From an uncultured Poribacteria bacterium (lineage in GTDB: Bacteria > Poribacteria > WGA-4E > WGA-3G), in the NCBI GenBank assembly GCA_951828515.1, contig OX639992.1, positions 3,574,217 to 3,638,216 of the forward strand: 64,000 nucleotides of DNA, written 5' to 3'. The notes below the pieces were generated by a model. It was not told the DNA's origin and searched no databases. It saw nothing but the letters and a program-made list of their open reading frames with translations. A program made the translations under genes and the position numbers. Below, piece after piece: positions 11,809-64,000 of this stretch; the stretch's first letter is position 1, and every line of letters starts with the position of its first letter.

Positions 11809-12453
11809 ATGACGAACATCCAAAAACCGACCAGTGTGTATACAGCGTCGGAGCTTGAACGAATTGACGAGGATGAACTCGTTGATCGGTTTCAAAATGG
11901 TGACATAGAGGCTTTTAATCCTCTCGTTCTCAAATATGAAAAAAAAATATATAACCTCATTTACCAGCGGATTCGTGATCGGGAAACAGCAAAAGATATT
12001 AGCCAAGAGGTCTTTTTAAAGGCGTTTAAAGCACTGCCTAACTTCAAAGGTGGCTCCGCGTTTTACAGTTGGATTTACCGGATTGCTATCAATAGTAGCA
12101 TTGACTTTCAGCGGCAGCGTAACCGTAGCAAAGTTCTTACGTTTGAAGAATTACCACCTGATGCCGACGACGTCCTACGGATGTCAGAGTCTCACCCATC
12201 GCCCGAGAAATTTCTTGAAGAAAAGGAACTCGGTAAGATTATTCGGAAGGCGGTGCGGAAACTACCTCCGGGTCAGCGTCGGGTCTTCAATCTTCGTCAC
12301 CGAAGAGAGCTGGCAATTAAAGAAATTGCAGTGTTGTTAAACAGATCCGAAGGTACAGTTAAAACACACTTACACCACGCCCATCGACGCCTCCAAGGCA
12401 TGCTGCTTCCCTACTTACGGGGTGAACCCTTGGAATGGCATGGTGAGGTTTAG
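11809..12453 (+). CDS. ECF-type RNA polymerase sigma factor
   Basis: This 214-residue protein has sigma region 2 (about residues 25-95, with the DISQEVFLKAFKALPNF core) and region 4 (about 150-205, with KEIAVLLNRSEGTVKTHLHHA as the DNA-reading helix-turn-helix) joined by a linker (FEELPPDADD). It would direct RNA polymerase to a dedicated promoter set. The ATG was chosen because GAAAGGAGAAAAAAGAC sits just before it; an upstream ATG 17 codons earlier lacks a site. There is no anti-sigma gene beside it: the tRNA cluster follows. This sigma is distinct in sequence from the membrane-anchored one at 39049. Confidence 0.93.
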   Translation: MTNIQKPTSVYTASELERIDEDELVDRFQNGDIEAFNPLVLKYEKKIYNLIYQRIRDRETAKDISQEVFLKAFKALPNFKGGSAFYSWIYRIAINSSIDFQRQRNRSKVLTFEELPPDADDVLRMSESHPSPEKFLEEKELGKIIRKAVRKLPPGQRRVFNLRHRRELAIKEIAVLLNRSEGTVKTHLHHAHRRLQGMLLPYLRGEPLEWHGEV

Positions 12454-12762: not shown

Positions 12763-12850
12763 GGTGGGATGGCTGAGTGGACGAAAGCGGCGGTCTTGAA
12801 AACCGTTATGGCGCAAGCCATCGTGGGTTCGAATCCTACTCCCACCGCCA
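12763..12850 (+). tRNA. tRNA-Ser(UGA)
   Basis: Acceptor GGTGGGA pairs with TCCCACC; the anticodon loop CTTGAAA gives anticodon TGA, decoding UCA and probably other UCN codons. A long variable arm (ATGGCGCAAGCCAT) identifies a class II tRNA. CCA is encoded. Confidence 0.95.
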
Positions 12851-12869
12851 TTATAGATAGAGATACAAA

Positions 12870-12960
12870 GGTTGGAGTGGACGAAAGCGGCGGTCTTGTC
12901 TTTTGATAAAGGGCGTTATGGCGCAAGCCATCGTGGGTTCGAATCCTACTCCCACCGCCA
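12870..12960 (+). pseudogene. Broken duplicate of tRNA-Ser(UGA)
   Basis: This is a partial copy of the preceding tRNA. A 24-base block from the D arm to the anticodon stem and about 48 bases of the 3' half, including CCA, are identical. But the 5' acceptor strand is reduced to GGTTGGA, which no longer pairs with TCCCACC, and the anticodon loop is replaced by a longer unrelated stretch (TCTTTTGATAAAGGG). It cannot fold as a normal tRNA. Confidence 0.85.
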
Positions 12961-12963
12961 TAG

Positions 12964-13048
12964 GGAGAGGTGCAGGAGTGGTTGAACTGGACTGCCTGCT
13001 AAGCAGTTATGGCGTAAGCCATCGTGGGTTCGAATCCCACCCTCTCCG
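12964..13048 (+). tRNA. tRNA-Ser(GCU)
   Basis: Acceptor GGAGAGG pairs with CCTCTCC; anticodon loop CTGCTAA between ACTGC and GCAGT gives GCT, decoding AGY. The long variable arm is present. CCA is not encoded. Confidence 0.95.
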
Positions 13049-13143
13049 TTTTATGAACAATAACCAGAGGACAGAGAACTGTAGGTCGATTCAGGTCTCG
13101 TAACTCCGTCCTACGTTTTTTCGATCTCTGACGTACAGCATAC

Positions 13144-13217
13144 GCGCCTGTAGCTCAGTGGATTAGAGCATCTGACTACGGATCAGAAGGCCGGGGGTTC
13201 GAATCCTCTCAGGCGCT
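13144..13217 (+). tRNA. tRNA-Arg(ACG)
   Basis: Acceptor GCGCCTG pairs with CAGGCGC; anticodon stem TCTGA/TCAGA encloses CTACGGA, anticodon ACG. Adenosine 34 of this tRNA is the bacterial substrate of TadA, whose gene starts 23 bases downstream. CCA is not encoded. Confidence 0.95.
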
Positions 13218-13240
13218 TCAAAGGTATTTGTTGGAAAAAT

Positions 13241-13699
13241 TTGGATAACGATTTTTTCTGGATGGGACAAGCGCTTAAATTAGCGCAACAGGCAGGCGAA
13301 AAAGGAGAAGTGCCAGTTGGTGCCTTGCTTGTTAGAGGCGAGGTCCTGATCGCTGAAGCATTTAACTTACGCGAAGCACATGGCAGTCCTATCGCCCACG
13401 CGGAAATGCTTGTTCTGCAAGCCGCATCTGAAAAAATCGGCAACTGGCGATTTGTTGATACAACCCTATATGTGACGTTAGAGCCTTGCCCAATGTGTGC
13501 GGGGGCGATCGTCTTAGCACGTATCCCAAGAGTGGTTTACGCAACAACGGACCCGAAATCAGGGGCAGCCGGGACGCTCTATAATATCCTTCAAGATGAA
13601 CGTTTGAATCATCGGGTTGAGTTGGTGAGTGGGGTATTAGCAGAAGAAAGCGGTGCCCTCCTGAAGTCCTTTTTTCGGCAACGTCGTAATAAAGTGTAA
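13241..13699 (+). CDS. tadA: tRNA-specific adenosine deaminase TadA
   Basis: TadA is a zinc enzyme that deaminates A34 of tRNA-Arg(ACG) to inosine, so that one tRNA reads CGU, CGC and CGA. The 152 residues match the family length. The zinc/catalytic motif HAEM (about residue 53, the H-A-E of the deaminases) and PCPMCAGA (about residue 83) are intact. The start is TTG, behind TTGGAAAAAT, only 23 bases from the end of tRNA-Arg(ACG), so enzyme and substrate are probably cotranscribed. The tRNA-Ser, tadA, SRP RNA, dnaX, ybaB, recR order repeats the arrangement known from Bacillus. Confidence 0.95.
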   Translation: MDNDFFWMGQALKLAQQAGEKGEVPVGALLVRGEVLIAEAFNLREAHGSPIAHAEMLVLQAASEKIGNWRFVDTTLYVTLEPCPMCAGAIVLARIPRVVYATTDPKSGAAGTLYNILQDERLNHRVELVSGVLAEESGALLKSFFRQRRNKV

Positions 13700-13764
13700 A
13701 AAGGTTTATAGAAGGCATGGATATGTGCCACTCGTTACTATGGGTTGGAGAGATTACATCAGAA

Positions 13765-13849
13765 GGAGAGATGCAGGAGTGGTTGAACTGGACAGTCTCG
13801 AAAACTGTTGTGGCGTAAGTCACCGTGGGTTCGAATCCCACTCTCTCCG
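13765..13849 (+). tRNA. tRNA-Ser(CGA)
   Basis: Acceptor GGAGAGA pairs with TCTCTCC; anticodon stem ACAGT/ACTGT encloses CTCGAAA, anticodon CGA, decoding UCG. Long variable arm present; CCA not encoded. A run of seven T follows directly. Confidence 0.95.
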
Positions 13850-13907
13850 TTTTTTTCTTTAATGGCAGGTCAAAATAACTGTCGAAAAACGTTTTTTTAC
13901 CACTTGT

Positions 13908-13980
13908 GGGGCAGTAGCTCAGTTGGGAGAGTGCATCCCTCGCACGGATGAGGTCACGGGTTCAAATCCCGTCTGCTCCA
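13908..13980 (+). tRNA. tRNA-Ala(CGC)
   Basis: Acceptor GGGGCAG pairs with CTGCTCC and the discriminator is A; anticodon stem CATCC/GGATG encloses CTCGCAC, anticodon CGC, decoding GCG. Normal short variable loop; CCA not encoded. Confidence 0.93.
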
Positions 13981-13984
13981 TACG

Positions 13985-14009
13985 AAATTGTGCTATTAAA
14001 GCACAATTT
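13985..14009 (+). terminator. Possible hairpin terminator after tRNA-Ala
   Basis: Arms AAATTGTGC and GCACAATTT form a perfect nine-pair stem around TATTAAA, five bases after the tRNA. The stem is AT-rich and the following T-run is weak, so termination is plausible but not strong. Confidence 0.4.
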
Positions 14010-14116
14010 GTCTTCGCTTTACATTCTTCGGTCCGGAATTGGGTCGAGAGTTGTTTTTATCAGATTTCCCATCTCATATCGCGTGCGGTTTGATGAGATG
14101 CGCTTGAAAATTTTAC

Positions 14117-14208
14117 GGAGAGATGCAGGAGTTGGTTGAACTGGCATGACTGGAAATCATGTGTGCTGTTTTGCAGTACCGTGGGTTCGAATCCCACTCT
14201 CTCCGCCA
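14117..14208 (+). tRNA. tRNA-Ser(GGA)
   Basis: Acceptor GGAGAGA pairs with TCTCTCC; anticodon stem CATGA/TCATG encloses CTGGAAA, anticodon GGA, decoding UCY. Long variable arm with a TGCTGTTTTGCAG hairpin. CCA is encoded. Confidence 0.94.
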
Positions 14209-39048: not shown

Positions 39049-40374
39049 TCAACGTGGGTCTATAGAGATTTTCGCGAGAAAAGAGTTGACTTTCCCTTCC
39101 CCGCTGAACGAATTACCGGTAGCCCCTAACTTAAAATGTGTGCCTTTGTCAAAACGGTGCGTGATCCTTCCACCCTTACCCGGTATAATCCCTGATGCCG
39201 AGGTAAGGACACTTTTAGGCATACCGTTCGTGGAAAGTTCGCTATCGCTTGTAAACAGAATGAAGGCACCAGCACCCTCTGCACTCCCGATCCAAAGGTC
39301 GATCGTGAGCATACCGCCATTTTTAAATGCCGTCGTATCAATCTCAACGACAGTATAATCTTGATAGCCTGCCGCCGGTGTTTGGAAAATGCTCAGAACG
39401 TCTTGTGAAGGTTTTTCATCGTTGAGCACGACGTTCTTTGCCTGTGTGGAGAGAAACCTCGGTCTATATTCCGATGGATCTGCATTCGGCGCAAATCCAT
39501 CACCTTTACTCGGTGTCGTAGATTTACCAGCTTGGGTCCGCACATCCGGTTTCGATGTGAGATTTAGAACAATAGGTGTGTCAATGAGTTCTACCGTCAT
39601 TTCCGATGGGGCATCGAAATTGTAAGGCTGTTGGAAACGTGTTAAATACTGACTGCTTGCTCCAAGTGCCATCACAACAAGAATAAGGCTTGAAGCGGCA
39701 ATTGCCCACGGCACAAATGGTTTACCGAAGGAAGGGGATGCAGGTTCAATACGGGAAACTTCCTGCATGATTTTCTCGGTGAGATTCGCCCTAATTTGGA
39801 AACCCTCCAACGCCTCTTGGATCATGGGTTCCGCCTTCTTTAAGCGGTGTCGCGCACGACGGAGCCGACTCTTAACCGTACTCGCTGACACACCCAAAAA
39901 CCGGCTAATCTCTTCACACGTCATTTCTCCAAAATAATGGAGTGTAACGACAGTGCGTTCACTTTCCCGCAGTCGGGCAAGCAATCTTTGGACGATGTCG
40001 CGTTGCGCTTCAGTAGCCGCTTTCTCCTGCTCCTCGGCAATATATTGAGAATACGTCCCACCTTCTATCAGTTCGGTGTCCGTATCTTCCAGCGATTGCG
40101 TCTGTATCCGTTTCTTTCTGAGCCATGCGTAGCATTGACGTGCCGCGATTCTATAAAGCCACCCCGCAAAACGACGCGGATCCCTCAGTGTTGCCAGTTT
40201 CTTATAAACCCGCAGGAAGGTATCCTGTGTAATTTCCTCAGCAATATGGAAATCGCCTACCTTCCGCCACGCGAGTGCGTGAACCTGCTTTTGATATTTT
40301 TTTACCAATTGCGCAAAAGCGTTTTCATCGCCTGTGAGACTGCGTTGAATTAGTTCAACATCGTCGTTTTTCAT
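39049..40374 (-). CDS. Membrane-anchored ECF sigma factor with C-terminal beta-rich domain
   Basis: Residues 1-185 are a complete ECF sigma factor: region 2 (ITQDTFLRVYKKLATLRDPRRFAGWLYRIA) and region 4 (MTCEEISRFLGVSASTVKSRLRRARHRL). A short linker (ANLTEKIMQEVSRIEP) leads to one membrane helix (about 221-239, WAIAASSLILVVMALG). The exported part ends in a 120-residue domain (about 318-441) containing GYQDYTVVEIDTTAF, MLTIDLWIGSAEGAG, FDKGTHFKLGATGN and NSFLAKISI. The same domain ends three neighbouring SelN-like selenoproteins. Sigma regions would be inside and the shared domain outside the cell, as in transmembrane one-component regulators. GGAGG precedes the ATG. It is the obvious candidate to read the GCAACC/CGTCAT promoters around it. 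Confidence 0.88.
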   Translation of the reverse strand: MKNDDVELIQRSLTGDENAFAQLVKKYQKQVHALAWRKVGDFHIAEEITQDTFLRVYKKLATLRDPRRFAGWLYRIAARQCYAWLRKKRIQTQSLEDTDTELIEGGTYSQYIAEEQEKAATEAQRDIVQRLLARLRESERTVVTLHYFGEMTCEEISRFLGVSASTVKSRLRRARHRLKKAEPMIQEALEGFQIRANLTEKIMQEVSRIEPASPSFGKPFVPWAIAASSLILVVMALGASSQYLTRFQQPYNFDAPSEMTVELIDTPIVLNLTSKPDVRTQAGKSTTPSKGDGFAPNADPSEYRPRFLSTQAKNVVLNDEKPSQDVLSIFQTPAAGYQDYTVVEIDTTAFKNGGMLTIDLWIGSAEGAGAFILFTSDSELSTNGMPKSVLTSASGIIPGKGGRITHRFDKGTHFKLGATGNSFSGEGKVNSFLAKISIDPR

Positions 40375-40482: not shown

Positions 40483-42480
40483 TCACTTGACATCATAAAT
40501 GAACCAGCTACCTTCCACTTTTCGCATCTTAACGAATACTTCCTGTTGTGGTGCCATCGGCACTCTCAATCGGAAGTGGAATTCGTCACCTACATATTCG
40601 CTGCTCAAAATCTCCATTTCACTCAACATTTCACTTATCTGAGCGCGCATATCTTCTGGCACATCGGTAAAATCACCTCCAAGTGTTTCTCTGGCATCCC
40701 CTGCAAGCATCGGGAGTATTGTCTCTCCATCAAGATCCTTAAATGCCTTCACGAAAGTGTTCATTGCATCTTCCGCAGATTGTTCTGGACGCACTGGTGA
40801 CACTTTTCTGGATGCTGTTTCCTGATTCGGTTCGACAGAGATTTTTGCCCAAAAAGCGTTGACACTTCCTTTCTGGCTGAACCAATTGCCTGTACCCCCC
40901 AGCTTAAAAATTTTACCCCGATCAAAACGATACTTGATTGTCCCTCTTTTACCGGGTGGAACATCCCATGCAGAAGCAAGTGCTCCGTGAGGCATACCCT
41001 CTGTCGGGAGTTCAGTGTCAGCATCGTAAAGATCGAACGATCCCTTGGGTTCAGCATTCCCTACCAGAATATCAATAGTAAGCAGACCGCCGCTTTTAAA
41101 CGCTGTCGTATCAATTTCAATGACAGTATAGTCTTGAAAACCGCGTCCTGGTGCCCGAAAAATATTGAGGACCTCCCGTTTCGGTTTTTCACTGGTGAGT
41201 GTAACTTTCAAATCCTTTGACACAGCATCTAATTCAGGAAAAGACCCTGAATCAGGTTCTAATGAAGGTTTCGAGGTCTCCTCCCGAAATCCGGGAAGTT
41301 TTCCATCTAAGGCTTCCGTGAGAAATAAAAGGTACCCGTTAGCACCGTTGTAAGGTGATATGCGTTCATTAACGGGGAGTCTACCCATTAGTTCAAATTC
41401 CGTCGATAGCACCAGGGAATCCGCAGGTGATTTTTTCTTCCATCCTTTCATGATTGCTTGTGCCAAGGCGTGGGTTGTGTCAAATGTTGTACCTTCGCGC
41501 TCGCGTCTCTTATCAATCGGATCCCGCAAACTCGGGACCCGTCCTAATTTGGAATTCGGCACCCATGTGTTGATGAAATTTTCATTCAAGAACTCTATAA
41601 TTTGATCGTCGGAGAGGACACCTGCCCTCAAGGATTTACCGCTCCCTCAGCACGACTCATCAGCAAGCGGGCCATCTATTGAGATGACGTGAATCGGTTT
41701 TTGCTGCGCTGGTGCCATTTCCAATGCTTCCTCCAATGAAACCCAGTTGATTTGCTGCGATTTGTAGAAACGCAATATCAGCTTACGTTCAGCTGCTTCT
41801 TGTGTAATTGATTCTACAAACTTGATGTCTGGGGCAATCTCTCTGATCTCAGCACGGAGTTCTATTTGTGGACAAAAACCGACATCTATAGTTCTGGTAC
41901 TGTTTCGTCCAACATCAAAATTCAGTACACCTTCAGGAACGTACATCTTGAAAGAGGCAACCTTTTCCTTAATTCGATCAATGACAAGATACCCAGTGAA
42001 TTGAGACGGAGTGAACCGACCATCTTCTAAGATGAATTCTGCATGGATGCGGAACACGATTTCAGCATATTTATCATTATAGGCGCGCAAGCATGCCCAC
42101 AAGCCATAGGAATCCCCCGCATTCATACTAATATCCAGACTTGGCTTAGGGTAGAGTTGGCGTAGTAATTCCAGCACACCCCCTTCTTCGATCTTCCAGA
42201 GATCGCCAACAGAAACTGCTTCAGAGGGCAGAAAAGTCCGAAAAACCGATGCAGGATACCGCTTCTCGGGTTCAGCAACTCGTAGATTTGCCAGTTCATC
42301 CCACTCCACATGGAAACCATATTGTGTATATTCAATCGGGGCAATGAACCCTTTTACTAACACTTCCGATGCGTCATTAAGATTAAGTGTAATTTTGTTA
42401 TCAGCTGATGAGTGATTATCAGCACCGAGTTGTCCACTCATCACCACCAGAATAAGAAACCCAACCGTCAAAATTTTCAT
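40483..42480 (-). CDS. Selenoprotein N-like protein A, read through UGA as selenocysteine
   Basis: The frame from ATG 42480 (AAGGAG before it) meets TGA at 41649-41647 and continues in the same frame to 40483, giving 665 residues with Cys277-Sec278 in DESCUGSGKSLR. The N-terminus is a signal peptide (MKILTVGFLILVVMSG), so the protein is exported. Residues about 120-260 match animal SelN: VFRIHAEF, FTPSQFTG, MYVPEGVLNFDV, PQIELRA. After Sec come LNENFINTWVP and a thioredoxin-like remainder. The shared beta-rich domain (GFQDYTVIEIDTTAF) follows, then an extra C-terminal NTF2-like segment (DAMNTFVKAFKDLDGETILPML) found only in this copy. A CU pair suggests a thiol/selenol redox role. Conventional gene calling splits it at the TGA. 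Confidence 0.9.
41614..41629 (-). promoter_or_regulatory. Bacterial SECIS-like stem-loop, gene A
   Basis: Seventeen bases after the UGA, GAGGGC pairs with GUCCUC (one G-U) around the tetraloop AGGU. A GU in the loop 25 or so bases from the UGA is what SelB-dependent bacterial SECIS elements need, and AGGU is also in the fdhF loop of E. coli. Confidence 0.75.
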
Positions 42481-42572
42481 TTTCAAATCTCCTTGTAATA
42501 ATTGACAATAACATTCTACATCAATAATGCCTATACAACAAGTTGTTGCTCACGTAGATTCTAATCTCGATA

Positions 42573-42605
42573 TATAATGACGCGGGTACCAGACAAAACG
42601 GTTGC
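42573..42605 (-). promoter_or_regulatory. ECF-type promoter of SelN-like gene A
   Basis: Minus strand GCAACCGTTTT (42605-42595) and CGTCATTATA (42582-42573); 17 bases between GCAACC and CGTCAT. The leader down to the ATG is nearly identical to that of gene B. Confidence 0.85.
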
Positions 42606-42696
42606 TTAATTCCACGGAGGCAGCTTTAAAAAAATGTAACATAGAGAGAGGACTCCGTTACAAGTAAAGTTGTATTGAATACACAAAACCCGTGTA

Positions 42697-44367
42697 TTAA
42701 TTTGAGTCTCTTTTCTCAACCCCGGTTTCTACAGAAATTGTAGCAAGAAACGCATTGGTACTTCCGTTTTTACTAAACCAATCACCGGTAGCCCCCAACT
42801 GAAAGGATTGACCGCGCTCAAAGGTATACATAATTTTCTCTATTCCACCGGGTGGAATACCCCACGCTGAAGCAAGGGCATTCTTAGGTACTCCTTCTGT
42901 TGGCAGTTTACTGTCACCTGCAAACAAATCAAACGAACCAGCAGCTTCGGCATGTCCAACAGAAATATCAATCGTGAGCATACCACCCTTTTCAAACGCT
43001 GTTGCATCAATCTCAACGACAGTATAATCTTGATAACCCGGTTCTGGTGTCCGAAAAATATTCAGGATCTCCTGTGAGGTCCGAACATCGTTAAGTACAA
43101 CTTTCAAGTTACTCAATACAGTCTCCGAGTTGAGAGGCTCTGGTTCTGAAGTATTTTCACCCAACCCAGGAAGTTTTCCGTCTAAGGATTCCTTAAGAAA
43201 CGTTAGGTAACGTTGCCCCATGTTTGATCCGATAAGATCATTGACGGGTTGTCTACCCATCACTTCAAGATCTGTCGAGAGAATCAAAGAATCCGATGGT
43301 GAACGCTTCTTCCAGCCTTTCATGATCCCTTGTGCCAAAGGGCGCATTCTGTCAAACGGCTGGAACCCTTGCTCGCGGCGCGCTGTCATGTATACTTTTT
43401 TATTCGGCGTGCGCTCCAATTCAAAATTCGACACCCATGTGTTGATGAAATTTTCGTTCAAGTACTCAATAATTCGGTTATTGGAGAGGACAACTGCCCT
43501 CAGGGCTTTGCCGCTCCCTCAGCACGATTCATCCATTAACGGTCCATCAATGGAGATGGCGTGAATAGGCTTCTGCTGTGTTTGTGCCATTTCCAATACC
43601 CGATCCGGCGGTACCCAGTTAATTTGCTGTGATTTGTAGAAACGTAGTATCAGCGCGTGTTCAGCGGTTTCTTGGGGAATGGATTCTGCGAATTCAACGT
43701 TTTCCAGAAGATCTTGTGTCCCAGCACGAAGTTCCATTTGGCAAAAACCACCCGCTACAATACTATGGTTTGCGTCTTTGTCTCTCTTCCAGTTAACATC
43801 AAAGTTTATTGGACCATCAGGAACGTACATCTCAAAGAAGGCAACCTTATCTTCGATCCGATCGATCACAAGTTGTCCTGTAAACTGGGATGGAGTAAAC
43901 CATCCATCTTGTAGTTTGAACTCTGCATGAATCCGAAATACAATGTAGGCAAATTGATCGTTGTAAGCGCGTAAGCACGCCCACAAGCCATAGGAATCCC
44001 CCGAATTGATATGCATATTCAAATTCGGGTTGGGGTGCAGCTGCCGAAACAAGGTGAGTGCCCCTTCCGCCTCAATCCTCCATGTTTCACCAATTGAAAC
44101 CGGTTCGTCTGGAAGAAAAGCGTGGAAAACCGATGCAGGATACCGCTTCTCAGGTTCAGCAGCGCGCAGATTCATCAAGGTGTCCCACTCCTTAAAAGAG
44201 GTCTCGGATAAGTTCTCCCCAACAGGCGCGATGAAGCCTTTCACGAATATTTCTGCTGTCCCATCAAGGTTAAGCGTGATTTTATTAGGGGTTGCCGAGT
44301 GGTCATCAGCATTTAGTTGTCCGCTCATCATTGCCAAAATAATGAAACCAACAATCCAGATTTTCAT
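42697..44367 (-). CDS. Selenoprotein N-like protein B, read through UGA as selenocysteine
   Basis: The frame from ATG 44367 (AAGGAG) passes TGA at 43521-43519 and ends at 42697, giving 556 residues with Cys282-Sec283 in DESCUGSGKALR. It has a signal peptide (MKIWIVGFIILAMMSG). SelN-like landmarks are IVFRIHAEF, WFTPSQFTG, MYVPDGPINFDVNW, QMELRA, then NENFINTWVSN after Sec. The shared beta-rich domain (GYQDYTVVEIDATAF...LGATGDWFSKNG) forms the C-terminus; the NTF2-like tail of copy A is absent. Closest paralogue is A, including about 120 bases of nearly identical leader, so this is a recent tandem duplication. Confidence 0.9.
43486..43501 (-). promoter_or_regulatory. Bacterial SECIS-like stem-loop, gene B
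   Basis: Same place and stem as in gene A (GAGGGC/GUCCUC, 17 bases after UGA); the loop is AGUU and keeps the GU. A competing GCCC/GGGC hairpin is also possible just upstream. Confidence 0.7.
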
Positions 44368-44458
44368 TTTCAATCTCCTTGTAATAATTAACAATAACAT
44401 TCTACATCAACAATGCCTATACAACAGGTTGTTGCTCACGTAGGTTCTAATCTCGATA

Positions 44459-44491
44459 TATAATGACGCGGGGAACCGACAAAACGGTTGC
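44459..44491 (-). promoter_or_regulatory. ECF-type promoter of SelN-like gene B
   Basis: GCAACCGTTTT (44491-44481) and CGTCATTATA (44468-44459), 17 bases between the hexamers. Confidence 0.85.
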
Positions 44492-44608
44492 TTAATTCTG
44501 CATAGGGGCACATGCCGTAAGTAACAATGCTTAAATATTCCCTTGTTATCACTTACAGGATTCTGAAGTTTTGATAAGGATAAAATCATTCTAATTTCTA
44601 AACCTGCT

Positions 44609-45433
44609 CTAAGGAACGACCGCTCTTCTTTTCACATCCGCCCAAGTTGTTGCAACTTTATCACTCGGTGAAACGGCGAGGAAATTCCCTACCATTGTTT
44701 GTTTAATTTCATTGTCACTGAGTGCCCGTCGCCAGACCGCGGCTTCGTCAATAAAACCGTTGATAAATGCATACTGGGATCTATTTTTTGCGCACCCGAT
44801 CCGTAGGTTCGCGTCATTACCACCGAAGAAGTTGAACTCCTTTTTCTTTTTACCTATGACTTTACCATCTAAATAAATTTTCATGGTTTTTCCGTCGTAG
44901 CTTCCAGTAACATGATACCATTTTTGAACACCCATTTTGTGTAGAACTGCGAATTCATGCCGGTTCGTAATCCCTTGTTTCTCCCGCGACCCGAGAAACA
45001 ACACAATCTCTGGTCCGTTACCGATATCGGAACTACCGATACCGTAAGTGCCAGCCCAACCTTCCCCCGAATGGCAACCTTTATCGAGCCAATGCAACAT
45101 TCTTTTGCCTTTCCATGTTTCTTGATAGTAAATCCATGTCATCATTGTTATTTCGCCTGTAACTTTCAGCTTCTCCTGAGCGGGGATACTGACGCAATCC
45201 TGACCATCATCTGTAATGTGAATTGCCTTGCCATATTTGCCTTTCACAATCTTGGTATTCTCAAGAATCTCGGCATTAAGACCATTCCCAGATTCATTAA
45301 CAACCGTCTGATCTTTAACGTTATCAAACGTTAGATAAAAAACGAGTTCCTCATCCAAACTCGCGTTAGCGGAAATCGTCCCAAACAGAATAACAATCCC
45401 CAAAAAAGCAGTACCGATAAATTCTCGTATCAT
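44609..45433 (-). CDS. Secreted LamG/concanavalin-like lectin-fold protein 1
   Basis: The 274-residue protein begins with a signal peptide (IREFIGTAFLGIVILFGTISANA) and folds as one LamG domain: LVFYLTFDNVKDQTVVNESG, ITMMTWIYYQETW, WYHVTGSYDGKTMKIYLDGK, NGFIDEAAVWRRALSDNEI. Such domains bind glycans or proteins; no catalytic site is visible. The chain ends VATTWADVKRRAVVP, a tail shared with the paralogue at 46695 and in part with the protein at 54675. I start at the ATG behind AGGAG; the upstream in-frame stretch lies in the promoter. It has its own ECF-type promoter. Confidence 0.85.
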   Translation of the reverse strand: MIREFIGTAFLGIVILFGTISANASLDEELVFYLTFDNVKDQTVVNESGNGLNAEILENTKIVKGKYGKAIHITDDGQDCVSIPAQEKLKVTGEITMMTWIYYQETWKGKRMLHWLDKGCHSGEGWAGTYGIGSSDIGNGPEIVLFLGSREKQGITNRHEFAVLHKMGVQKWYHVTGSYDGKTMKIYLDGKVIGKKKKEFNFFGGNDANLRIGCAKNRSQYAFINGFIDEAAVWRRALSDNEIKQTMVGNFLAVSPSDKVATTWADVKRRAVVP

Positions 45434-45502
45434 GTTCTCTTTTTCTCCTATAGCGTCTATTACGCTTTCCAAAATTTGCCACACGAATATTGGGTTGATA
45501 TA

Positions 45503-45535
45503 TACAGTGACGCGGATTAAGGACAAAACGGTTGC
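45503..45535 (-). promoter_or_regulatory. ECF-type promoter of LamG gene 1
   Basis: GCAACCGTTTT (45535-45525) and CGTCACTGTA (45512-45503), 17 bases between the hexamers; one base differs in the second hexamer (CGTCAC). Confidence 0.8.
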
Positions 45536-45628
45536 CTAATTCTGAAAACATAAGAAAAATATGATGCCCGGAGCGGAAAGCGCACATAATACCAGAAAAT
45601 CAGTTTTATGGTGATTCTGTCTATAACA

Positions 45629-46651
45629 CTATTTCTTTTTTATTTTTCCCCATACTCTGCTTAGCAGTTGCGATTGTGGCGAAACAGGCAACAAATACAT
45701 AGGGTCGAACCAATCCCCTCCAAAATTCGCATCAAAAACCCGCCCAATATGTGTCAACTGGGTCCGAGTACCACTGTTCACATCAAGTTTGAAAATGTGT
45801 AGACGACCATTAATTTTTTGTGTATAAAGGACTTCTTCTCCATCTGGCGACAATACAGGATACTGTGCCCTTGGACCGGCTTCATCCACAAGTTCTCGGA
45901 GATCAGTCCCGTCCCGGTTCACAATGTAGATTGTCTCCTTATCCAGCCATACGGCGGGGAAACGATCCCCCGGCAAAAGGCGCGGTAAGGGATTCTTATT
46001 CCAAGAAAAAACGATCTTACGCCCCGTTGCCGACCAAAAGGGATGATTTTGCCAAGACGTTGCGGTCCTCGGTAGGAGGTGTTTTTGCCTTCGTGTATGG
46101 ATGTCAATGAGGGCAACTCGACAGGTATCTCCAATATAAGACATATATGCTATTTTCGTCCCATCGGGCGACCACGTAGGATATCTGCCCTCCACGATGC
46201 TCTCCTCTTTTTGTGAACCCAAGGTTGCAACGTGGATATGGAACTTGACACTGTTCCAATTCAGGTGTGTGTAAGCGATCTGTTTGCCATCCGGTGACCA
46301 CGTCGGAGAATCCCTATAAGCCTTTCTTTTCCTCGTGAAGACACGTCGAACATTAGATCCACTCGGATCCATCAGATACAGGTCTCGAATGCTGCCATCA
46401 CGATCGGAGACGAAAAGAATCTCCTCACCAGTAGGAGACCAAACGGCGTTCAGATCATTTGCGCGATGTTGTGTTAAATTCACTTGTTCGCTGCCGTCTG
46501 GATTCATGATGTAGACCTCGTAATTACCGTCTCGTGAAGAGGTGAACAAAATTTTGGCGGTTGTAGGTGCTGTTGCGAAAACGAGGCAACCGCTTACGTC
46601 CAGTATCAACACGTTCAATATAGCAAAAACGAACAACCGTATTGTTTTCAT
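45629..46651 (-). CDS. TolB-like beta-propeller protein, exported
   Basis: The 340 residues start with a signal peptide (TIRLFVFAILNVLILDVSG) and then carry WD40-like TolB repeats: AKILFTSSRDGNYEVYIMNP, WSPTGEEILFVSDRDG, WSPDGKQIAYTHLNW, YPTWSPDGTKIAYMSY, YPVLSPDGEEVLYTQ. The protein is a periplasmic propeller of the TolB/PD40 class; a true Pal-binding TolB N-domain is absent, so it is not TolB itself. ATG 46651 was chosen for the AAGGAA before it. It lies 43 bases downstream of LamG gene 2 and probably forms an operon with it under the ECF-type promoter at 47581. Confidence 0.82.
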   Translation of the reverse strand: MKTIRLFVFAILNVLILDVSGCLVFATAPTTAKILFTSSRDGNYEVYIMNPDGSEQVNLTQHRANDLNAVWSPTGEEILFVSDRDGSIRDLYLMDPSGSNVRRVFTRKRKAYRDSPTWSPDGKQIAYTHLNWNSVKFHIHVATLGSQKEESIVEGRYPTWSPDGTKIAYMSYIGDTCRVALIDIHTRRQKHLLPRTATSWQNHPFWSATGRKIVFSWNKNPLPRLLPGDRFPAVWLDKETIYIVNRDGTDLRELVDEAGPRAQYPVLSPDGEEVLYTQKINGRLHIFKLDVNSGTRTQLTHIGRVFDANFGGDWFDPMYLLPVSPQSQLLSRVWGKIKKK

Positions 46652-46694
46652 TTTATATTCCTTTATGAGGAGATTCTGATTTTGCAAGTAGCCG

Positions 46695-47513
46695 TTAAGG
46701 TGCGATCGCTCTCCTTTTCATATCCGCCCAGGTCGTCGCCACTTTATCACTCGGTGAAACGGCGAGAAAGTTCCCTGTCATGGCTTGTTTAATTTCATCA
46801 TCGCTCAGGGCTCGTTGCCAGACAGCAGCTTCGTCAATAGAACCATTGACAAATGCAGCGTGTGCTCTATCTTTTACACATCCAATTTGAACATCAGCAT
46901 CATTGTCACCAGCTAAATTGAATTTTCTCTCTTCTTCGCCTATGACTTTACCATCTACATAGATTTTCATGGTTTCGCCATCGTAGTTGGCTGCCACATG
47001 ATGCCATTTTTTAGCCACCATTTTGTGTGGACTGGCCAGATCCTTCCGCCCTGTCACATTCCCTTGATTATCCCGTGATCCCAAATATAACCAGATTAGT
47101 GGTCCTCCACCGATATCACCACTCTGAATACCATAGGAGGTCGCCGCACCAGCCGTATGACAGTCTTTATCAAACCAATGTGTTCTCTTACCTATCCATG
47201 TTTCTGGATAATAAATCCATAACACCATTGTTATCTCACCTCTAACTTTTAGTTTTTCCTGAGAAGCGATATTGACGCAATCCACCCTTTGACCTGTGAT
47301 ACGGATTGCCTCTCCATATTTGCCCTTGACAATCTCGGCATTCTCAACTATTTCTGCATCAAGACCATTTCCAGATTCATCAAGAATCGTTTGATTTTTA
47401 ACGTTATCGAACGTCAGATAAAAAACGAGTCCCTCATCCAAACCCGCGTTGGCAAAAGCTATCAACGATAGCATAATAACACTCGAAAAAGCAGCAATAA
47501 ATGCCCGTAACAT
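46695..47513 (-). CDS. Secreted LamG/concanavalin-like lectin-fold protein 2
   Basis: This 272-residue paralogue of the protein at 44609 has the same plan: signal peptide (LRAFIAAFSSVIMLSLIAFANA), LamG body (LVFYLTFDNVKNQTILDESG, WHHVAANYDGETMKIYVDGK, NGSIDEAAVWQRALSDDEI) and tail VATTWADMKRRAIAP. AGGAGG precedes the ATG. It leads an operon with the TolB-like gene. With copy 1 it brackets the TolB-like gene, indicating a local duplication. Confidence 0.85.
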   Translation of the reverse strand: MLRAFIAAFSSVIMLSLIAFANAGLDEGLVFYLTFDNVKNQTILDESGNGLDAEIVENAEIVKGKYGEAIRITGQRVDCVNIASQEKLKVRGEITMVLWIYYPETWIGKRTHWFDKDCHTAGAATSYGIQSGDIGGGPLIWLYLGSRDNQGNVTGRKDLASPHKMVAKKWHHVAANYDGETMKIYVDGKVIGEEERKFNLAGDNDADVQIGCVKDRAHAAFVNGSIDEAAVWQRALSDDEIKQAMTGNFLAVSPSDKVATTWADMKRRAIAP

Positions 47514-47580
47514 GTTTTCTTTTCCTCCTATAGCGTTATTTGAACTTTCTAAAATATGTCATACAAATATCGTGTCGAGA

Positions 47581-47613
47581 TATAATGACGCGGAGGATCG
47601 GAAAAACGGTTGC
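47581..47613 (-). promoter_or_regulatory. ECF-type promoter of the LamG2-TolB-like operon
   Basis: GCAACCGTTTT (47613-47603) and CGTCATTATA (47590-47581), 17 bases between the hexamers. Confidence 0.85.
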
Positions 47614-47744
47614 CTAATTCTTCAAAAAATAATGGAAAATCGGATACATACCTAATAGAAAAAGCCCAACACCACTGATTCTGCATGTATTTAACAGAAA
47701 CGTAGATCTGCAGTCCCGCGTTGACAGGTGGTTTAGGTTAATAT

Positions 47745-47908
47745 AACCCAAGTTGCTACCTAATAGGTCATGGACGTTTCAACACGGATTTTTCAAGGAA
47801 AAACATCTCTTTATACCCCGTAGGGGTGGTATGTCTATAGAAAATCGGGTATTCAAGGAGTTGCACCGCGTAGGGGTGCTATGTAAATGGAAGCTGGCAA
47901 CTTGGGTT
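47745..47908. mobile_element. MITE-like element with AACCCAAGTTGC ends
   Basis: AACCCAAGTTGC (47745-47756) is perfectly mirrored by GCAACTTGGGTT (47897-47908), with partial extension of the match into TTAATAT on the outside. The 164-base element is non-coding and holds two tandem copies of ACCCCGTAGGGGTGGTATGT / ACCGCGTAGGGGTGCTATGT. It ends nine bases from the stop codon of SelN-like gene C. Confidence 0.75.
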
Positions 47909-47916
47909 AATATATC

Positions 47917-49452
47917 CTATTTTTCAAATGAAGGGACGACAGAAACACGCGCCAGAAAAGCGTTGGGAGCACTCTTCTGGTTGCCTACTCCTGTAGCAAC
48001 CAATTTAAAATGCTGTTTACCCCGACCAAAATGGTGAAAGATATGCCCTATGCTATCAGGTGAAACGTTCCACGCGCCAGTCAGTGCTTTATCTGTCGTT
48101 TTGTTTGTCAGAATTTTGGCATCGGCATCGAACAACTCAAATGTTCCAGTTGCTTCACCTGCTCCCACCTGTATCTCAATGTGGAGTATTCCCTGTTCAA
48201 AGGGTGTGGTATCAATTTCAACGACCGTGTAATCTGGTGTATCGGTGTCGGATGCGCTAAAGGTGTGCAAAATCTCCATCAACGCCGTTCCCAAACTGAT
48301 CGGATTTCGATCTAATCTCGACCCTTTTCCCACACGTCTACGCCTTCCGTCAAACGCATCTACAGCATGCTGTAACACTGATAGGTACGCGTGTGGCTGA
48401 TTCCTGTAAGGCAATGCCATCTCTGGTTGATGCATAATGACTTCTGCATCGGGGGTCAGTGCCAAAATGTCCACAGAGTCGGTATAGTGGCGTTTCATCT
48501 CTTTAGCGACAAGGCTTGCTACCTCGCCTTTCGCACCACCTATCAGTTCCAGCAATTCTCGGAGGAGCACCCATGTATTGACGAACTTCTCGTTGAGTGT
48601 CTTTATGACTTCTGAATCGGAGAGCGGACCCGCCCTCAAATTTTTGCCGTTCGCTCAGCACGATTCATCGTCCAAACATCCCCAGACAAGGATGGCATGA
48701 ATCGGACGATTGGTTGCTTTGGCTCGTGTGACCGCTTCACCAACCGGCAGCCAATCAATCTCAGCGAATTTATAGAACTTCAGCTCCAGCGCGCGGTATG
48801 CTTCTTCCGTTGTAATAGCAGTGTCCCACGCGATATCGTCTGGGTCGGTCTCGTCTACAGCGAGGAGTTCCATACGTGGCACAAAAATCATATCCGCTCC
48901 ACCATAGGCATTGAGGTCAACATTGCTATTGCGTGCCGGTAGTGCCAACGAAAACGCGCGAACCGTTCCGCTTTTTAAATTTACCAATATCTTTCCGGAA
49001 AATTGCGATGGAATAAACCTTGCTTCGGACTCCCTCTCATCGTTTGCCTCTTGCCACTCCTGATAGGCGGCAGACTTCAACGTGAATTCTGCATGAATTC
49101 GGAAAGCGATTTCTGCATAGTTTGATGAGCATGCCCGTAAGCAGGCAAAGGCTCCTTCCTCACCGTAACCTAAATCAGCTGTCGCACCCGGATGAAACTG
49201 ATGAAGGAAGCAAACAACACTGTTCGCATCAAGTTCCCAGACATCACCGACTGTTACAGTTGATGACGGAAGAAATGTCTTGAAAGCATCCGCTCTGTAT
49301 TCCTTGATGGGTCGGTTTGGGGACAAGTCGAAGAGTTCAACGTGTTCTGGCAACGCTTTGTGCATACGAAACGTAGAATCCGCAATTGGTTCCCAATGTG
49401 CATGTACCTGTAGACGTGCCGAACTATTTAGGACATTACAAAGATTTATCAC
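47917..49452 (-). CDS. Selenoprotein N-like protein C, read through UGA as selenocysteine
   Basis: The frame from GTG 49452 passes TGA at 48657-48655 and ends at 47917, giving 511 residues with Cys265-Sec266 in DDESCUANGKNLR. This is the most divergent of the four and the closest in wording to animal SelN: HAILVWGCLDDESCU, and LNEKFVNTWVLLRELLEL after Sec. Upstream are IAFRIHAEFTL, FIPSQFSG and PRMELLA. There is no signal peptide: the chain begins where the mature part of A and B begins. The shared beta-rich domain closes the protein (PDYTVVEIDTTPF...FKLVATGVGN). The start overlaps the stop of gene D (GTGA), so it is translationally coupled to D. Confidence 0.9.
48620..48637 (-). promoter_or_regulatory. 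Bacterial SECIS-like stem-loop, gene C
   Basis: Seventeen bases after the UGA, GAGGGCG pairs with CGCUCUC over seven pairs around the loop GGUC. The stem is one pair longer than in A, B and D and its sequence has changed on both sides while pairing is kept; the loop again holds GGU. Confidence 0.78.
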
Positions 49453-50693
49453 TGTTTGTCTCCATTGTCATGAGGCATTCGGTTATTGAAGAAAACATTC
49501 CAATTAGTTGTTGGCTGCGGTTCCAAAGTGTTGTCGTCCAATCCGGGCTTTTTCCCCGCTAATGCTGCCTTAAGAAAGAAAAGGTACGCCTCTTCGTCTC
49601 CAAGTCCTTTCAGTTCGGTATTGAAGAAGTCATTCACAGGCATGCTGCCCATTAACTCAAGTTCCGACGAGATCACCAAGCAATCTACGGGTGAATGCCC
49701 ATTCCAGCCTTTCATAATTGCTTGTGCCAATGGATGACTCCTGTCAAATGTCTTGGATCCACCTTGGTACCTCAGTGCCATGAAGGCTCGTTTTTTTGGC
49801 GTACGTCTTAATTCAACATTCGATACCCAGGTGTTGATGAAATTTCCGTTCAAGAATGCGACATTCTGTTCATCAGAAAGGGCAACTGCCCTCAAGCCTT
49901 TTCCAGTCCCTCAGCACGACTCATCTGCCAGCGGTCCATCTATGGAGATAGCATGAATCGGTTTCTGTTGTGCTTGTGCCATCTCCAACACTTGATCGGG
50001 TGGGACCCAGTTAACTCGCTTCGATCCGTAAAAACGCAGCATCAGCAAATGCTTCGCTTCTTTATGGGTGATGGAAACCCCTGTGAATTCAACATTTTCT
50101 ATAATATCCTTCGTCCCCACACGGAGCTCCATCTGTGAACAAAAGCCAGCATCCGTGCCTTTCCAGTTGAGATCGAAATTTACTGTGCCTTCAGGGACGT
50201 ACATCTCAAAGAATACAACACTCCGTTCAACCCTATCAATAATGAGAGTTCCAGTGAACTGCGACGGTGTAAACCAACCCCCTTCTAACTTGAATTCTGC
50301 ATGAATCCGAAAGGTAATGTCGGCAAATCGATCGTTGTAAGCGCGTAGGCATGCCCACAATCCCCGAGAATCCCCAGAATTGATGTGCATAGCCAAATTC
50401 GGATTCGGATGAAGTTGCCGGAGCAATTCAAGGACGCTGGCTTCTTCAATCTCCCAAAGGTCGCCAACCACAACAGGTTCATTTGGAAGAAACACTTGGA
50501 AAACCGATGCAGGATGATGTTTTTCTGGCTCAGCGACGCATAGGTTTGCCAATGCATCCCACTTTACATGAAAATTGGATAGGGTTTTTTCAATCGGGGC
50601 GATAAAGCCTTTCACCAACACTTCTGCGTCGCCATCAAGATTGATCGTAATTTTGTTAGTTGTTGGTGCTTTATAGATATTAAGAGTTTCCAT
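49449..50693 (-). CDS. Selenoprotein N-like protein D, short form, read through UGA as selenocysteine
   Basis: The frame from ATG 50693 (GGAG before it) passes TGA at 49913-49911 and ends at 49449, giving 414 residues with Cys260-Sec261 in DESCUGTGKGLR. SelN landmarks are ITFRIHAEF, WFTPSQFTG, MYVPEGTVNFDLNW, QMELRV and NGNFINTWVSN. Unlike A and B it has no signal peptide (METLNIYKAPTTNK). It stops at the point where the beta-rich domain begins in the paralogues (NWNVFFNNRMPHDNG), running by GTGA overlap into gene C. D has lost the C-terminal domain and C the N-terminal leader, as though an intervening segment had been deleted. Confidence 0.9.
49878..49893 (-). promoter_or_regulatory. Bacterial SECIS-like stem-loop, gene D
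   Basis: GAGGGC pairs with GCCCUU around AGUU, 17 bases after the UGA. Compared with A and B the inner G-U pair has become G-C and the outer G-C has become G-U, so pairing is preserved while bases change. Confidence 0.75.
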
Positions 50694-50734: not shown

Positions 50735-50767
50735 TACAATGACGCGAGTTCCAGTCAAAACGGTTGC
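50735..50767 (-). promoter_or_regulatory. ECF-type promoter of SelN-like genes D and C
   Basis: GCAACCGTTTT (50767-50757) and CGTCATTGTA (50744-50735), 17 bases between the hexamers; 42 bases before the gene D start. Confidence 0.83.
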
Positions 50768-50879
50768 ACAATTCCGTCCAAAACTATTGATTCAGCATGC
50801 ATTCACAATAAATTGCCGAATAAGTCGGACTATTCAGTTTTACCATTTATACACATTTTCGGATGCACCTGTGGAGGAG

Positions 50880-51300
50880 TCGGTATGTTCGTAGTAGTGC
50901 GATTCATCGCACGTTCTTACAGACAACTGAGACGGACGTAGCCCTCAGCGATGTATCCGACAGCACCTGTAGAAAATCGAAAGTTTCCTGTAGGAGGGAT
51001 CTCCGAATCCCGACTCTTTACTGATTGCTGATTGCTGATTGCTGATCGCTATTCTCGTTCGTAGTCGTACGATTCATCGCACGTTCCCTAATACTGTGAA
51101 TCCTGCTTCAGACAATCGACAACTAATTCCCTCTTACTGACCGCTGACTGCTGATTGCTGATCGCTATTCTTCTGACTGCTGATTGCTGATCGCTATTCT
51201 CGTTCGTAGTAGTGCGATTTGCGGCGTACTCGCCCAAATGCGACGTGCATTCATCGCACGTTCTTAAAGTGTTTGGCGGGGAATAAGAAAGCACACTTGA
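50880..51300. repeat. Repeat-filled intergenic region with hairpins
   Basis: The gap between gene D and the GH32 gene contains no credible gene. It holds GTGCGATTCATCGCAC hairpins at 50897-50912 and (one mismatch) 51067-51082. A third copy at 51212-51259 is split by about 30 inserted bases between its arms. Other contents are a variant GTAGGAGGGATCTCCGAATC near 50990 and long runs of CTGATTGCTGATCGCTATTC-type words. Confidence 0.75.
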
Positions 51301-61612: not shown

Positions 61613-64000
61613 CTACTTCTGAATCAACATCTTCCGTGTGGAAGTGAAATCCCCCGCCGATAACGTGTAAAAGTAGATTCCACTGGCAACTTGCTCGCCA
61701 AATGCGTTCGTCCCATCCCAGTAGACGGCGCGACTCCGGCTCTGATAAAGTCCCGCAGGTTGATGTCCCAACACCAATTTTCGGACTACTGCTCCATTCG
61801 CGGCGTAGATAGTCAGAGCGACTTCAGCGGGTTCAGAGAGCTGATATGGGATCCATGTCTCTGGGTTGAACGGGTTTGGGTAATTGGGTAGCAGTGCTGT
61901 CGTTTTTGGAGCTAACATCTCCAAAAGATGTTCCAGCACCAGAATTCCGCGTTCGTAGGAAACCCGATTTGGAAACCTTGAGTTTTGAATAGCACGTGAT
62001 GCATCTTGTTTAGCGAGGCGCAGCCACTCGGACACCTCCGCTCTTGACAGTGGTGAACGCATTGAGGGGGCACCAGCAACATTTCCTAACGCATTACCAA
62101 CCAGCACGAGATCCTGAACGTTAACGACCCCATCACCGTTTAGGTCTGCTTTATTCTCTCCAGACGCTCCGAAACTTCCCGCAATCAGCACTATATCCTG
62201 GATATTGACGACCCCATCACCATTGATATCGGCGAGGACTTCTGCAGCATCTGCCAACATCGGAAATTTCCATAGGAGAACAGTACCATCAATACTGCCA
62301 CTCGCAATCGTGTTGCCGTCTGGACTGACCGCGACGCTCGTTATGGGCCATGTATGCCCTTCAAACGCTTCCAACTGTTCTCCGGTGTCAGTGTCCCACA
62401 AGCGGATCGTCGCGTCGGAACTTCCGCTAACGAGTACGCCGCCATCTGGACTGAAAACAGTACTGGTGGCATTTGCCGGACTCTCTGTCAGGGTATCCCC
62501 TAACGCCTCCACTGCCTCGTCGGGATCGACAGGTTCAACGAAGGTATGCTGGAGTTCTCCTGTTGAAATATCCCACAGCGAAACCTTGTCTCTACCGCCA
62601 CTTGCAAGTACCTTACCATCAGGACTAAAGGTAACCGTCCTGACATCGGCGTCATGCTCAGTGATAACATGTAGCACTTCACCTGCTTCGAGATCCCACA
62701 AGCGAATAGTATCGTCCCGACTTCCGCTTGCAAGCAGATTGCCATCTGGACTGAACGCCAAGGTTTCAACCCCTGCCTCATGTTCCCATAGGGTTGCTAT
62801 GTGTGCGCCTGTGGTCGCATCCCACAAACGGATGCTATCGTCCTCACTCCCACTGGCGAGCATACCACCGTCTGGACTGAACGCAAGGCTTATCAGGTAG
62901 GAATGATGTCCTCTGAGCGTCTTAAGGTGTTCGCCAGTGACGGCATCCCATAAACGGACAGTATCGTCTTGGCTACCACTTGCAAGTGTCCGTCCATCGG
63001 GAGCGAATACAACAACATCAACATCGTCTTGGTGTCCGATAAGAACATGTCGAAGTTGGCCGGTAACAGCATCCCAGAGTCGAATGGTTTTGTCCCAGCT
63101 CCGAGTCGCAAGTGTCGTCCCATCAGCACTGAATATAATACTCTTGACAGAATCTGTATGTCCGGTGATGGCTTTTAGATGCTCACCTGTAGTAGGGTTC
63201 CATGAGCGGATTGAAGCATCCCATGCCCCACTGGTAAGTGTATTGCCATCAGGCGTGAAAGCGACTCTATAGACATCAGCGGTATGTCCAGTGAGCGTTT
63301 TGAGGTGGGTATTTGTAGTTGTATCCCACAAGCGGATGGTATCGTCCTCACTTGCGCTTGCGAGGAAACTGCCATCGGGACTGTAGACAACATGATAAAC
63401 GTGAGACGTATGCCCAGTGAATGTCTGCTTGATCGTCCATGTGGCGGTATCCCAGAGGTGGATAATAGCGTTCAAATCCCCGCTGGCGAGCGTAGTCCCA
63501 TCAGGGCTCAGCGCAACGGTAGCAACATCATCACGATGTCCTATCAGTGTTTGCTGTAGTTCACCTGTGGTGGCATCCCATATACCGATAGTATCGTCAC
63601 GGCTCCCGCTGATGAGCGTGTTGCCATCAGCAGTAAAAACCAAACTATTAACACCGTCCTCATGCCCTTCGAGTGTTTTCAGAAGTTCGCCTGTTTCAGG
63701 ATGCCACAGACGGATAGTAGAACCTCTACTACCACTTGCGAGTATAGACCCATCAGGACTGAAAACGAGGCTGCGAATGTCCCTTCTACGGTCCCTGAAA
63801 GTGTGCAGCAGCGCACCTGTAGTTGCATCCCACAAGTAGATGGTCCCGTCAGCACTGCCACCAGCGAGCATACGCCCATCAGGTGAGTACGCCATGCTCC
63901 ACAATCCAGACGTATATACAGCAAAATATCTGATTTCTTCATCGGTCGCTGTATCATAGATCCAAATGCCGATAGTACCCGCAACAGCAAGTTGACTCCC
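61613..64000 (-). CDS. WD40 double-propeller protein with dockerin and YPNPFNP sorting tail, 5' end beyond the window
   Basis: The frame is open to the right edge, so at least 795 residues are seen and the start lies outside. Fourteen WD40 blades can be counted (IGIWIYD, IYLWDATTG, IRLWHPETG ... VLLWKFPM), enough for two seven-blade propellers. They are followed by a dockerin pair (DINGDGVVNIQDIVLI and DLNGDGVVNVQDLVLV) and a C-terminal domain with PNYPNPFNPETWIPYQL...VASGIYFYTLSAGDFTSTRKM, the form used as an outer-membrane sorting or anchoring tail. A surface protein scaffold is likely. A TTG at 63904 looks like a start only because the window ends soon after; blade sequence continues upstream of it. 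Confidence 0.9.
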   Translation of the reverse strand, partial: GSQLAVAGTIGIWIYDTATDEEIRYFAVYTSGLWSMAYSPDGRMLAGGSADGTIYLWDATTGALLHTFRDRRRDIRSLVFSPDGSILASGSRGSTIRLWHPETGELLKTLEGHEDGVNSLVFTADGNTLISGSRDDTIGIWDATTGELQQTLIGHRDDVATVALSPDGTTLASGDLNAIIHLWDTATWTIKQTFTGHTSHVYHVVYSPDGSFLASASEDDTIRLWDTTTNTHLKTLTGHTADVYRVAFTPDGNTLTSGAWDASIRSWNPTTGEHLKAITGHTDSVKSIIFSADGTTLATRSWDKTIRLWDAVTGQLRHVLIGHQDDVDVVVFAPDGRTLASGSQDDTVRLWDAVTGEHLKTLRGHHSYLISLAFSPDGGMLASGSEDDSIRLWDATTGAHIATLWEHEAGVETLAFSPDGNLLASGSRDDTIRLWDLEAGEVLHVITEHDADVRTVTFSPDGKVLASGGRDKVSLWDISTGELQHTFVEPVDPDEAVEALGDTLTESPANATSTVFSPDGGVLVSGSSDATIRLWDTDTGEQLEAFEGHTWPITSVAVSPDGNTIASGSIDGTVLLWKFPMLADAAEVLADINGDGVVNIQDIVLIAGSFGASGENKADLNGDGVVNVQDLVLVGNALGNVAGAPSMRSPLSRAEVSEWLRLAKQDASRAIQNSRFPNRVSYERGILVLEHLLEMLAPKTTALLPNYPNPFNPETWIPYQLSEPAEVALTIYAANGAVVRKLVLGHQPAGLYQSRSRAVYWDGTNAFGEQVASGIYFYTLSAGDFTSTRKMLIQK

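Follow-up and report, generated by a model that had tools for sequence, protein, structure and literature searches.

The window analyzed here, a 64,000-nucleotide (nt) stretch from the genome of an uncultured Poribacteria bacterium (contig OX639992.1, positions 3,574,217 to 3,638,216), contains an array of four related minus-strand genes, SelN-1 to SelN-4, each carrying an in-frame TGA at which standard gene calling splits it in two. We propose that these genes very probably encode bacterial selenoproteins related to animal selenoprotein N (SELENON, or SEPN1). The source genome is one contig of 5.85 Mb and is 95% complete. A previous interpretation of the window from its letters alone (the sequence-only reading) had put the TGAs directly after the codons for D-E-S-C, with first bases at 41649, 43521, 48657 and 49913; these placements are exact, and the frames stay open beyond them. 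With the TGA written as U, for selenocysteine (Sec), each gene has its single in-frame TGA within DESC-U-(G/A)xGK, giving SCUG in SelN-1, SelN-2 and SelN-4 and SCUA in SelN-3. The read-through proteins align over a shared core in which the strings FRIHAEF, PSQF.G, PIH.I, G.L.DESC-U-..GK.LRA..LS and NTWV do not vary, and the LRA..LS and FxNTWV motifs pointed out earlier are common to all four.

The ATG of SelN-1, at 42480, is preceded by the ribosome binding site (RBS) AGGAG. The terminal TGA of SelN-4 (49451-49449) overlaps the GTG start of SelN-3 (as GTGA, window 49449-49452), and translation of the two genes is probably coupled. SelN-4 employs TGA in both roles, as the predicted Sec codon and as a stop. 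SelN-1 is the only one of the four with an extra C-terminal domain of ~115 amino acids (aa) past the beta-sandwich described below (40483-40827), for which Pfam matches are weak only.

Homology to SELENON

A profile built from 193 distinct full-length copies, gathered from Poribacteria loci, matched a human SELENON sequence, checked at 13 published residue positions, with 197 bits (E 5e-60), compared with 0.2 bits for the best of 200 shuffles. The alignment is colinear over human aa 193-518 and places Sec462 on the TGA column, bearing out the SelN homology first proposed from motifs. SelN-3 is the most animal-like copy of the array and the best of the four against human SELENON (BLAST, 30% identity over 344 aa, E 1e-46). 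At another locus of the genome, the copy L138 (G000:1512974) reads GALDDESCUGTGKALR where the human protein reads GALDDQSCUGSGRTLR. The bacterial and animal proteins share colinear N-terminal and thioredoxin-like halves, SC-U-G followed by G..LR..L and LN..F..TW, and the FRIHAEF and QFTG strings. The likeness extends beyond the active site, since the N-terminal half, taken by itself, reaches 89.8 bits against human SELENON (FRIHAEF, P(A/S)QFTG, PQMEL); its first two strings are the family's counterparts of VFRIHAEF and PAQFTG, as the sequence-only reading had anticipated.

The AlphaFold model (predicted local distance difference test score, pLDDT, 89) has a thioredoxin-like C-terminal half (model residues 217-366). 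Its nearest structures are a cytochrome c biogenesis-related C-terminal domain, ERp19, DsbH and AGR2/3 (Z 12-14), and the fold is shared with the thioredoxin-like domains of the DsbH, ERp19, AGR2-3 and DsbD C-terminal kind generally (Z 10-14). We know of no Cys-Sec pair in these structures. Sequence searches of Pfam, NCBIfam and PDB found no model or relative for the SelN-like proteins, Pfam giving a weak DsbH match only. These fold matches, together with the DsbH hit, could be taken to mean that the genes encode Sec-containing thioredoxin-like proteins that have converged with SelN at the active site. However, such structures cover only model residues 217-366 and leave the N-terminal half unmatched, whereas the match to SELENON takes in that half, outside the thioredoxin-like domain. 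We consider convergence highly improbable.

Homology to SELENON does not imply the architecture of the animal protein. None of the 193 copies has an EF-hand-like loop, and Pfam finds no EF-hand either. The type II endoplasmic reticulum (ER) membrane anchor of SELENON was not found in the bacterial copies, the bacterium having no ER. Signal-peptide-like starts are present in SelN-1 and SelN-2, and none is recognizable in SelN-3, SelN-4 or most of the 193. Most copies carry an additional C-terminal beta-sandwich. Judged by sequence, the bacterial proteins are homologues of the SELENON luminal body and not animal-type SELENON. The earlier description of them as full-length SelN homologues goes too far: they lack the transmembrane segment and the EF-hand of the animal protein, and they have an additional domain at the C-terminus.

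A thiol-disulfide oxidoreductase function is likely, given the fold, the motif and the homology, with the adjacent Cys-Sec pair as the putative redox centre. Such a role has been proposed for SELENON, with the adjacent Cys-Sec pair (GCUG) of eukaryotic thioredoxin reductase as the comparison (PMC12839072). The reductase has an unrelated fold, and its pair lies in a C-terminal tail, whereas the SelN-like pair lies inside the thioredoxin-like domain. SelN-1 and SelN-2, apparently exported, may work in the cell envelope; SelN-3 and SelN-4 are perhaps cytosolic.

The in-frame TGA and its downstream hairpin

Exactly one in-frame TGA, in the same column, is found in 192 of the 193 full-length copies, much more than chance would give. 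The single exception (L129, frame segment 1193) has Ser at the site (DEACSESGK), and Sec copies lie on the same contig too. No copy has TAA, TAG or Cys at this column; a TAA or TAG here in relatives is what the sequence-only reading had said would count against it. That reading had also turned on whether the genome encodes the Sec machinery, and all four components are present: tRNA-Sec (selC; 78 bits, anticodon UCA), selB (347 bits), which adjoins the tRNA-Sec gene, selA (594 bits) and selD (359 bits; G000:C1:4977731-4978654, L020). The selD gene has its own single in-frame TGA, and its product is probably also a selenoprotein. A selA match above the cut-off was found in 57 of the 65 SelN-bearing Poribacteria genomes.

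Downstream of the TGA, at +20 to +35, the family has a 16-nt hairpin, GAGGGC-AGKU-GYCCUC, with G and U in the apical loop, which resembles a bacterial selenocysteine insertion sequence (SECIS). Pairing holds in 96.4% of cells and falls to 46-81% when the register is slid, and two-sided (compensatory) changes occur in 21 cells, compared with 4.3 (standard deviation 1.8) in column shuffles. Codon choice in the stem is nearly frozen: all 181 sequences encode Arg by AGR, compared with 28% across the family, and 174 of 181 encode Leu by CTC, compared with 18% across the family. Synonymous differences amount to 0.19 in the SECIS codons and to 0.49-0.51 on either side. The ratio of nonsynonymous to synonymous change (dN/dS) is similarly low upstream (0.16) and downstream (0.13) of the TGA. 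The low dN/dS and the silenced synonymous variation together indicate that the downstream half is translated in frame and overlaps an RNA signal. Rfam gave no match above threshold within the array.

These data bear on two other ways to read the TGA. It could be an ordinary stop, yielding a truncated N-terminal protein with the downstream frame as a separate gene or decaying remnant; TGA does end 11 of the 47 long open reading frames (ORFs) in the window, and gene callers treat it so here. Against this, the part beyond the TGA is as constrained as the part before it, the codon is retained across the family without replacement by TAA or TAG, the SECIS codons are frozen and the Sec machinery is complete, leaving this explanation very little room. 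A TGA read as Trp, Gly or Cys, by way of code reassignment or tRNA suppression, is equally implausible. A TGA between conserved coding stretches does not by itself name the residue, but there is a single TGA per gene, always beside the Cys of the catalytic motif, and TGA is not generally reassigned, because SelN-4 and the 11 long ORFs stop at it. The encoded tRNA-Sec, SelA, SelB and SelD, and the downstream hairpin of bacterial SECIS type, also argue for Sec.

We therefore favor the identification of the TGA as a Sec codon, made earlier from the letters and now backed by the machinery, the hairpin, purifying selection on both sides and the near-invariance of the codon. Incorporation of Sec at the UGA is, on these grounds, highly probable. 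SelB, directed by the hairpin 20-35 nt downstream, would insert Sec beside the Cys in the thioredoxin-like domain. A SECIS just past the UGA is the arrangement of the 119 known bacterial selenoprotein families (PMC13188914); in the bacterial SelN genes it lies within the coding region, whereas the animal SECIS lies in the 3' untranslated region.

Distribution and relation to animal SELENON

Matches were found in 65 of 85 Poribacteria genomes, with up to 18 per genome, and identity within the family is as low as 29%. The four array genes predicted at the outset are confirmed, but the family in this genome is larger, and a single TGA is present in every one of its eight full-length copies. The genome also has SelN fragments without TGA (G000:C1:2541949-2542140 and 430733-430909, the second weak), probably decaying copies or chance matches. 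In a scan of 84,980 species, the best 80 matches were all from Poribacteria. A suggestion in the sequence-only reading that SelN homologues might occur in this phylum proved sound: the relatives are Candidatus Poribacteria metagenome-assembled genomes, as named in their genome records. Outside Poribacteria, three samples of ~386 genomes each, drawn from three centres, gave no full-length match, the hits there being short thioredoxin segments or weak (E 1e-4 to 9e-4).

The poribacterial sequences form two groups, type A (SelN-3, L138 and few others), which is nearer to human SELENON, and a large type B. The human sequence sits on a long branch that joins the branch between the two types; type A alone is supported at 99/97. 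A position of the human protein nested within Poribacteria was sought in the trees, and it falls outside both groups. The tree is unrooted, with human as its one eukaryote on that long branch, and is mute on the direction of transfer. It is conceivable, though we regard it as unlikely, that animal SELENON descends from a bacterial Sec family now centred on Poribacteria, which are ancient associates of sponges, through an early transfer to animals or eukaryotes, and that a Cys-Sec oxidoreductase already in place acquired the EF-hand, ER anchor and calcium sensing later. Contamination by the sponge host, or very recent transfer from it, is scarcely credible: Poribacteria inhabit sponges, and SelN does occur in one sponge, Amphimedon (PMC3473315), but the genes reside in a single-contig genome with bacterial operons, RBSs, promoters and SECIS, the family is widespread and divergent within the phylum, and human SELENON lies outside both poribacterial groups.

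In 2007 SelN was regarded as restricted to animals (PMC2375036), and it was later reported in some algae (PMC7539508). It is absent from a 2026 inventory of 119 prokaryotic selenoprotein families; the families listed there as shared with eukaryotes are SelD, GPX, deiodinase-like, SelW-like, MsrA and, newly, SelO (PMC13188914). The co-occurrence of SelA and SelB in sponge symbionts has been noted, with the targets unnamed (PMC5649159). We found no mention of a bacterial or poribacterial SelN in a literature search confined to openly accessible journal papers. A Planctomycetes paper considered as a possible report of bacterial SelN merely cites a SelN review (PMC4807772). Our data point to a SelN family with Sec in bacteria, which would extend the prokaryotic selenoproteome by one family, and they uncover a large set of related genes that ordinary gene calling has hidden by halving its members.

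Defects in SELENON cause congenital myopathy. In the bacterial relatives the redox core stands apart from calcium sensing. Soluble members that have neither anchor nor EF-hand, SelN-4 (414 aa) for example, could make a structure attainable and the chemistry of the SCUG motif accessible. A 2020 study had no solved SELENON structure to use (PMC7474598). These simple bacterial versions may also open the origin of SELENON to study.

A probable sigma factor regulon and other features of the window

The sequence-only reading had described a regulated four-copy array. Regulation is indeed indicated, but the regulon is wider and extends to two LamG proteins and one PD40 protein (Table 1). Across the 5.85 Mb, the motif GCAACCGTTTT-N10-CGCGTCA has five occurrences, always in the array and each time before a transcription unit; the reversed motif, used as a control, does not occur. 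Promoters of extracytoplasmic function (ECF) sigma factors have AAC-type -35 and CGTC-type -10 elements. Here an AAC/CGTC-type promoter motif precedes each unit, as is characteristic of an ECF sigma regulon, and the sigma gene itself is included, at the end of the fifth unit, after SelN-1. Other Poribacteria keep the pattern of promoter, LamG or PD40 gene, SelN with tail, and ECF sigma factor with the same domain. The bacterial family differs from SELENON in being multi-copy, in its added tail and in belonging to such a regulon.

The five near-identical promoters would drive transcription of the array and are most likely read by the sigma factor of the SelN-1 operon; control of the regulon by this factor is quite probable. 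Like other ECF sigma factors with C-terminal extensions, it has sigma-70 r2 and r4 domains that lead into a hydrophobic segment, beyond which lies an outer domain. Unlike them, its outer domain is homologous to the tails of its own regulon's selenoproteins (40-58% identity to those of SelN-1, SelN-2 and SelN-3). The domain is modelled as a beta-sandwich, and the model matches the general beta-sandwich arrangement only, pointing to no function. The factor is apparently tethered in the membrane with the beta-sandwich outside, and it probably senses something beyond the membrane through this domain, which it has in common with the selenoproteins that it would control. This sharing suggests that the regulon is autoregulated and responds to envelope or thiol stress, although stress as the inducer is a tentative proposal.

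Taken as a whole, the interpretation that the four genes are true bacterial selenoproteins, homologous to the SELENON body, probably acting as Cys-Sec oxidoreductases and probably regulated by an ECF sigma factor, has in our estimate a probability of about 0.92. Some considerations weigh against it. Eight of the 65 SelN-bearing genomes, all drafts, have no selA match above the cut-off. The strict hairpin form is the minimum free energy (MFE) structure in just 93 of 181 sequences. The pairing of sigma factor and promoters is argued from proximity and the uniqueness of the motif. Finally, the human query was not a database copy, although it agrees with the literature at all 13 residues compared (R5, Q8, R27, H52, S78, R262, R268, R291, the Gly at position 315 [c.943G>A], H389, Sec462, R466 and R469).

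Table 1. Features of the SelN array, given as positions within the 64,000-nt window
Feature	Position	Strand	Description or basis
SelN-1	40483..42480	-	~665 aa; hydrophobic signal-peptide-like N-terminus, SelN core, beta-sandwich tail, further C-terminal domain
SelN-1 in-frame TGA (predicted Sec codon)	41647..41649	-	position and family conservation
SelN-1 SECIS-type hairpin	41614..41629	-	family alignment, +20 to +35
SelN-1 beta-sandwich tail	40828..41205	-	domain comparison
SelN-2	42697..44367	-	~556 aa; signal-peptide-like N-terminus, beta-sandwich tail
SelN-2 in-frame TGA (predicted Sec codon)	43519..43521	-	position and family conservation
SelN-2 SECIS-type hairpin	43486..43501	-	family-level pairing; own MFE favors extended alternative
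SelN-2 beta-sandwich tail	42727..43101	-	domain comparison
SelN-3	47917..49452	-	~511 aa; beta-sandwich tail; GTG start uncertain
SelN-3 in-frame TGA (predicted Sec codon)	48655..48657	-	position and family conservation
SelN-3 SECIS-type hairpin	48622..48637	-	family alignment
SelN-3 beta-sandwich tail	47932..48276	-	domain comparison
SelN-4	49449..50693	-	~414 aa; no signal peptide, no tail; ordinary TGA stop
SelN-4 in-frame TGA (predicted Sec codon)	49911..49913	-	position and family conservation
SelN-4 SECIS-type hairpin	49878..49893	-	family alignment
ECF-type promoter motif before SelN-4/SelN-3	50740..50767	-	motif search
ECF-type promoter motif before first LamG gene (and PD40 gene)	47586..47613	-	motif search
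ECF-type promoter motif before second LamG gene	45508..45535	-	motif search
ECF-type promoter motif before SelN-2	44464..44491	-	motif search
ECF-type promoter motif before SelN-1 and sigma factor	42578..42605	-	motif search
ECF sigma factor (sigma-70 r2 and r4), predicted membrane segment, C-terminal beta-sandwich	39049..40374	-	Pfam, sequence
Beta-sandwich domain of sigma factor	39052..39474	-	domain comparison, model
Secreted LamG/concanavalin-like protein of regulon	46695..47513	-	Pfam
PD40 beta-propeller protein of regulon	45629..46687	-	Pfam; beside SelN genes in relatives
Second LamG protein of regulon	44609..45526	-	Pfam; likely start ATG 45433

Several other features of the window were noted. 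The intergenic stretch heading the array (50840-51260) contains repeated GATCAGCAATCAGCAGTCAG units and repeated GAACGTGCGATGAATCGCACTACTACGAAC elements. A second ECF sigma gene (11758-12453; 231 aa, shorter than that of the array) adjoins a cluster of seven tRNA genes (12763-14208), four of which are tRNA-Ser with different anticodons. Similar tRNA clusters, with sub-threshold matches to the tRNA-Sec model, lie elsewhere in the genome (G000:2941892-2942633 and 4210461-4211101). Toward the end of the window, 61613-63904 encodes a protein of 763 aa that contains 13 or more WD40 repeats, like the eukaryote-like repeat proteins of symbionts.

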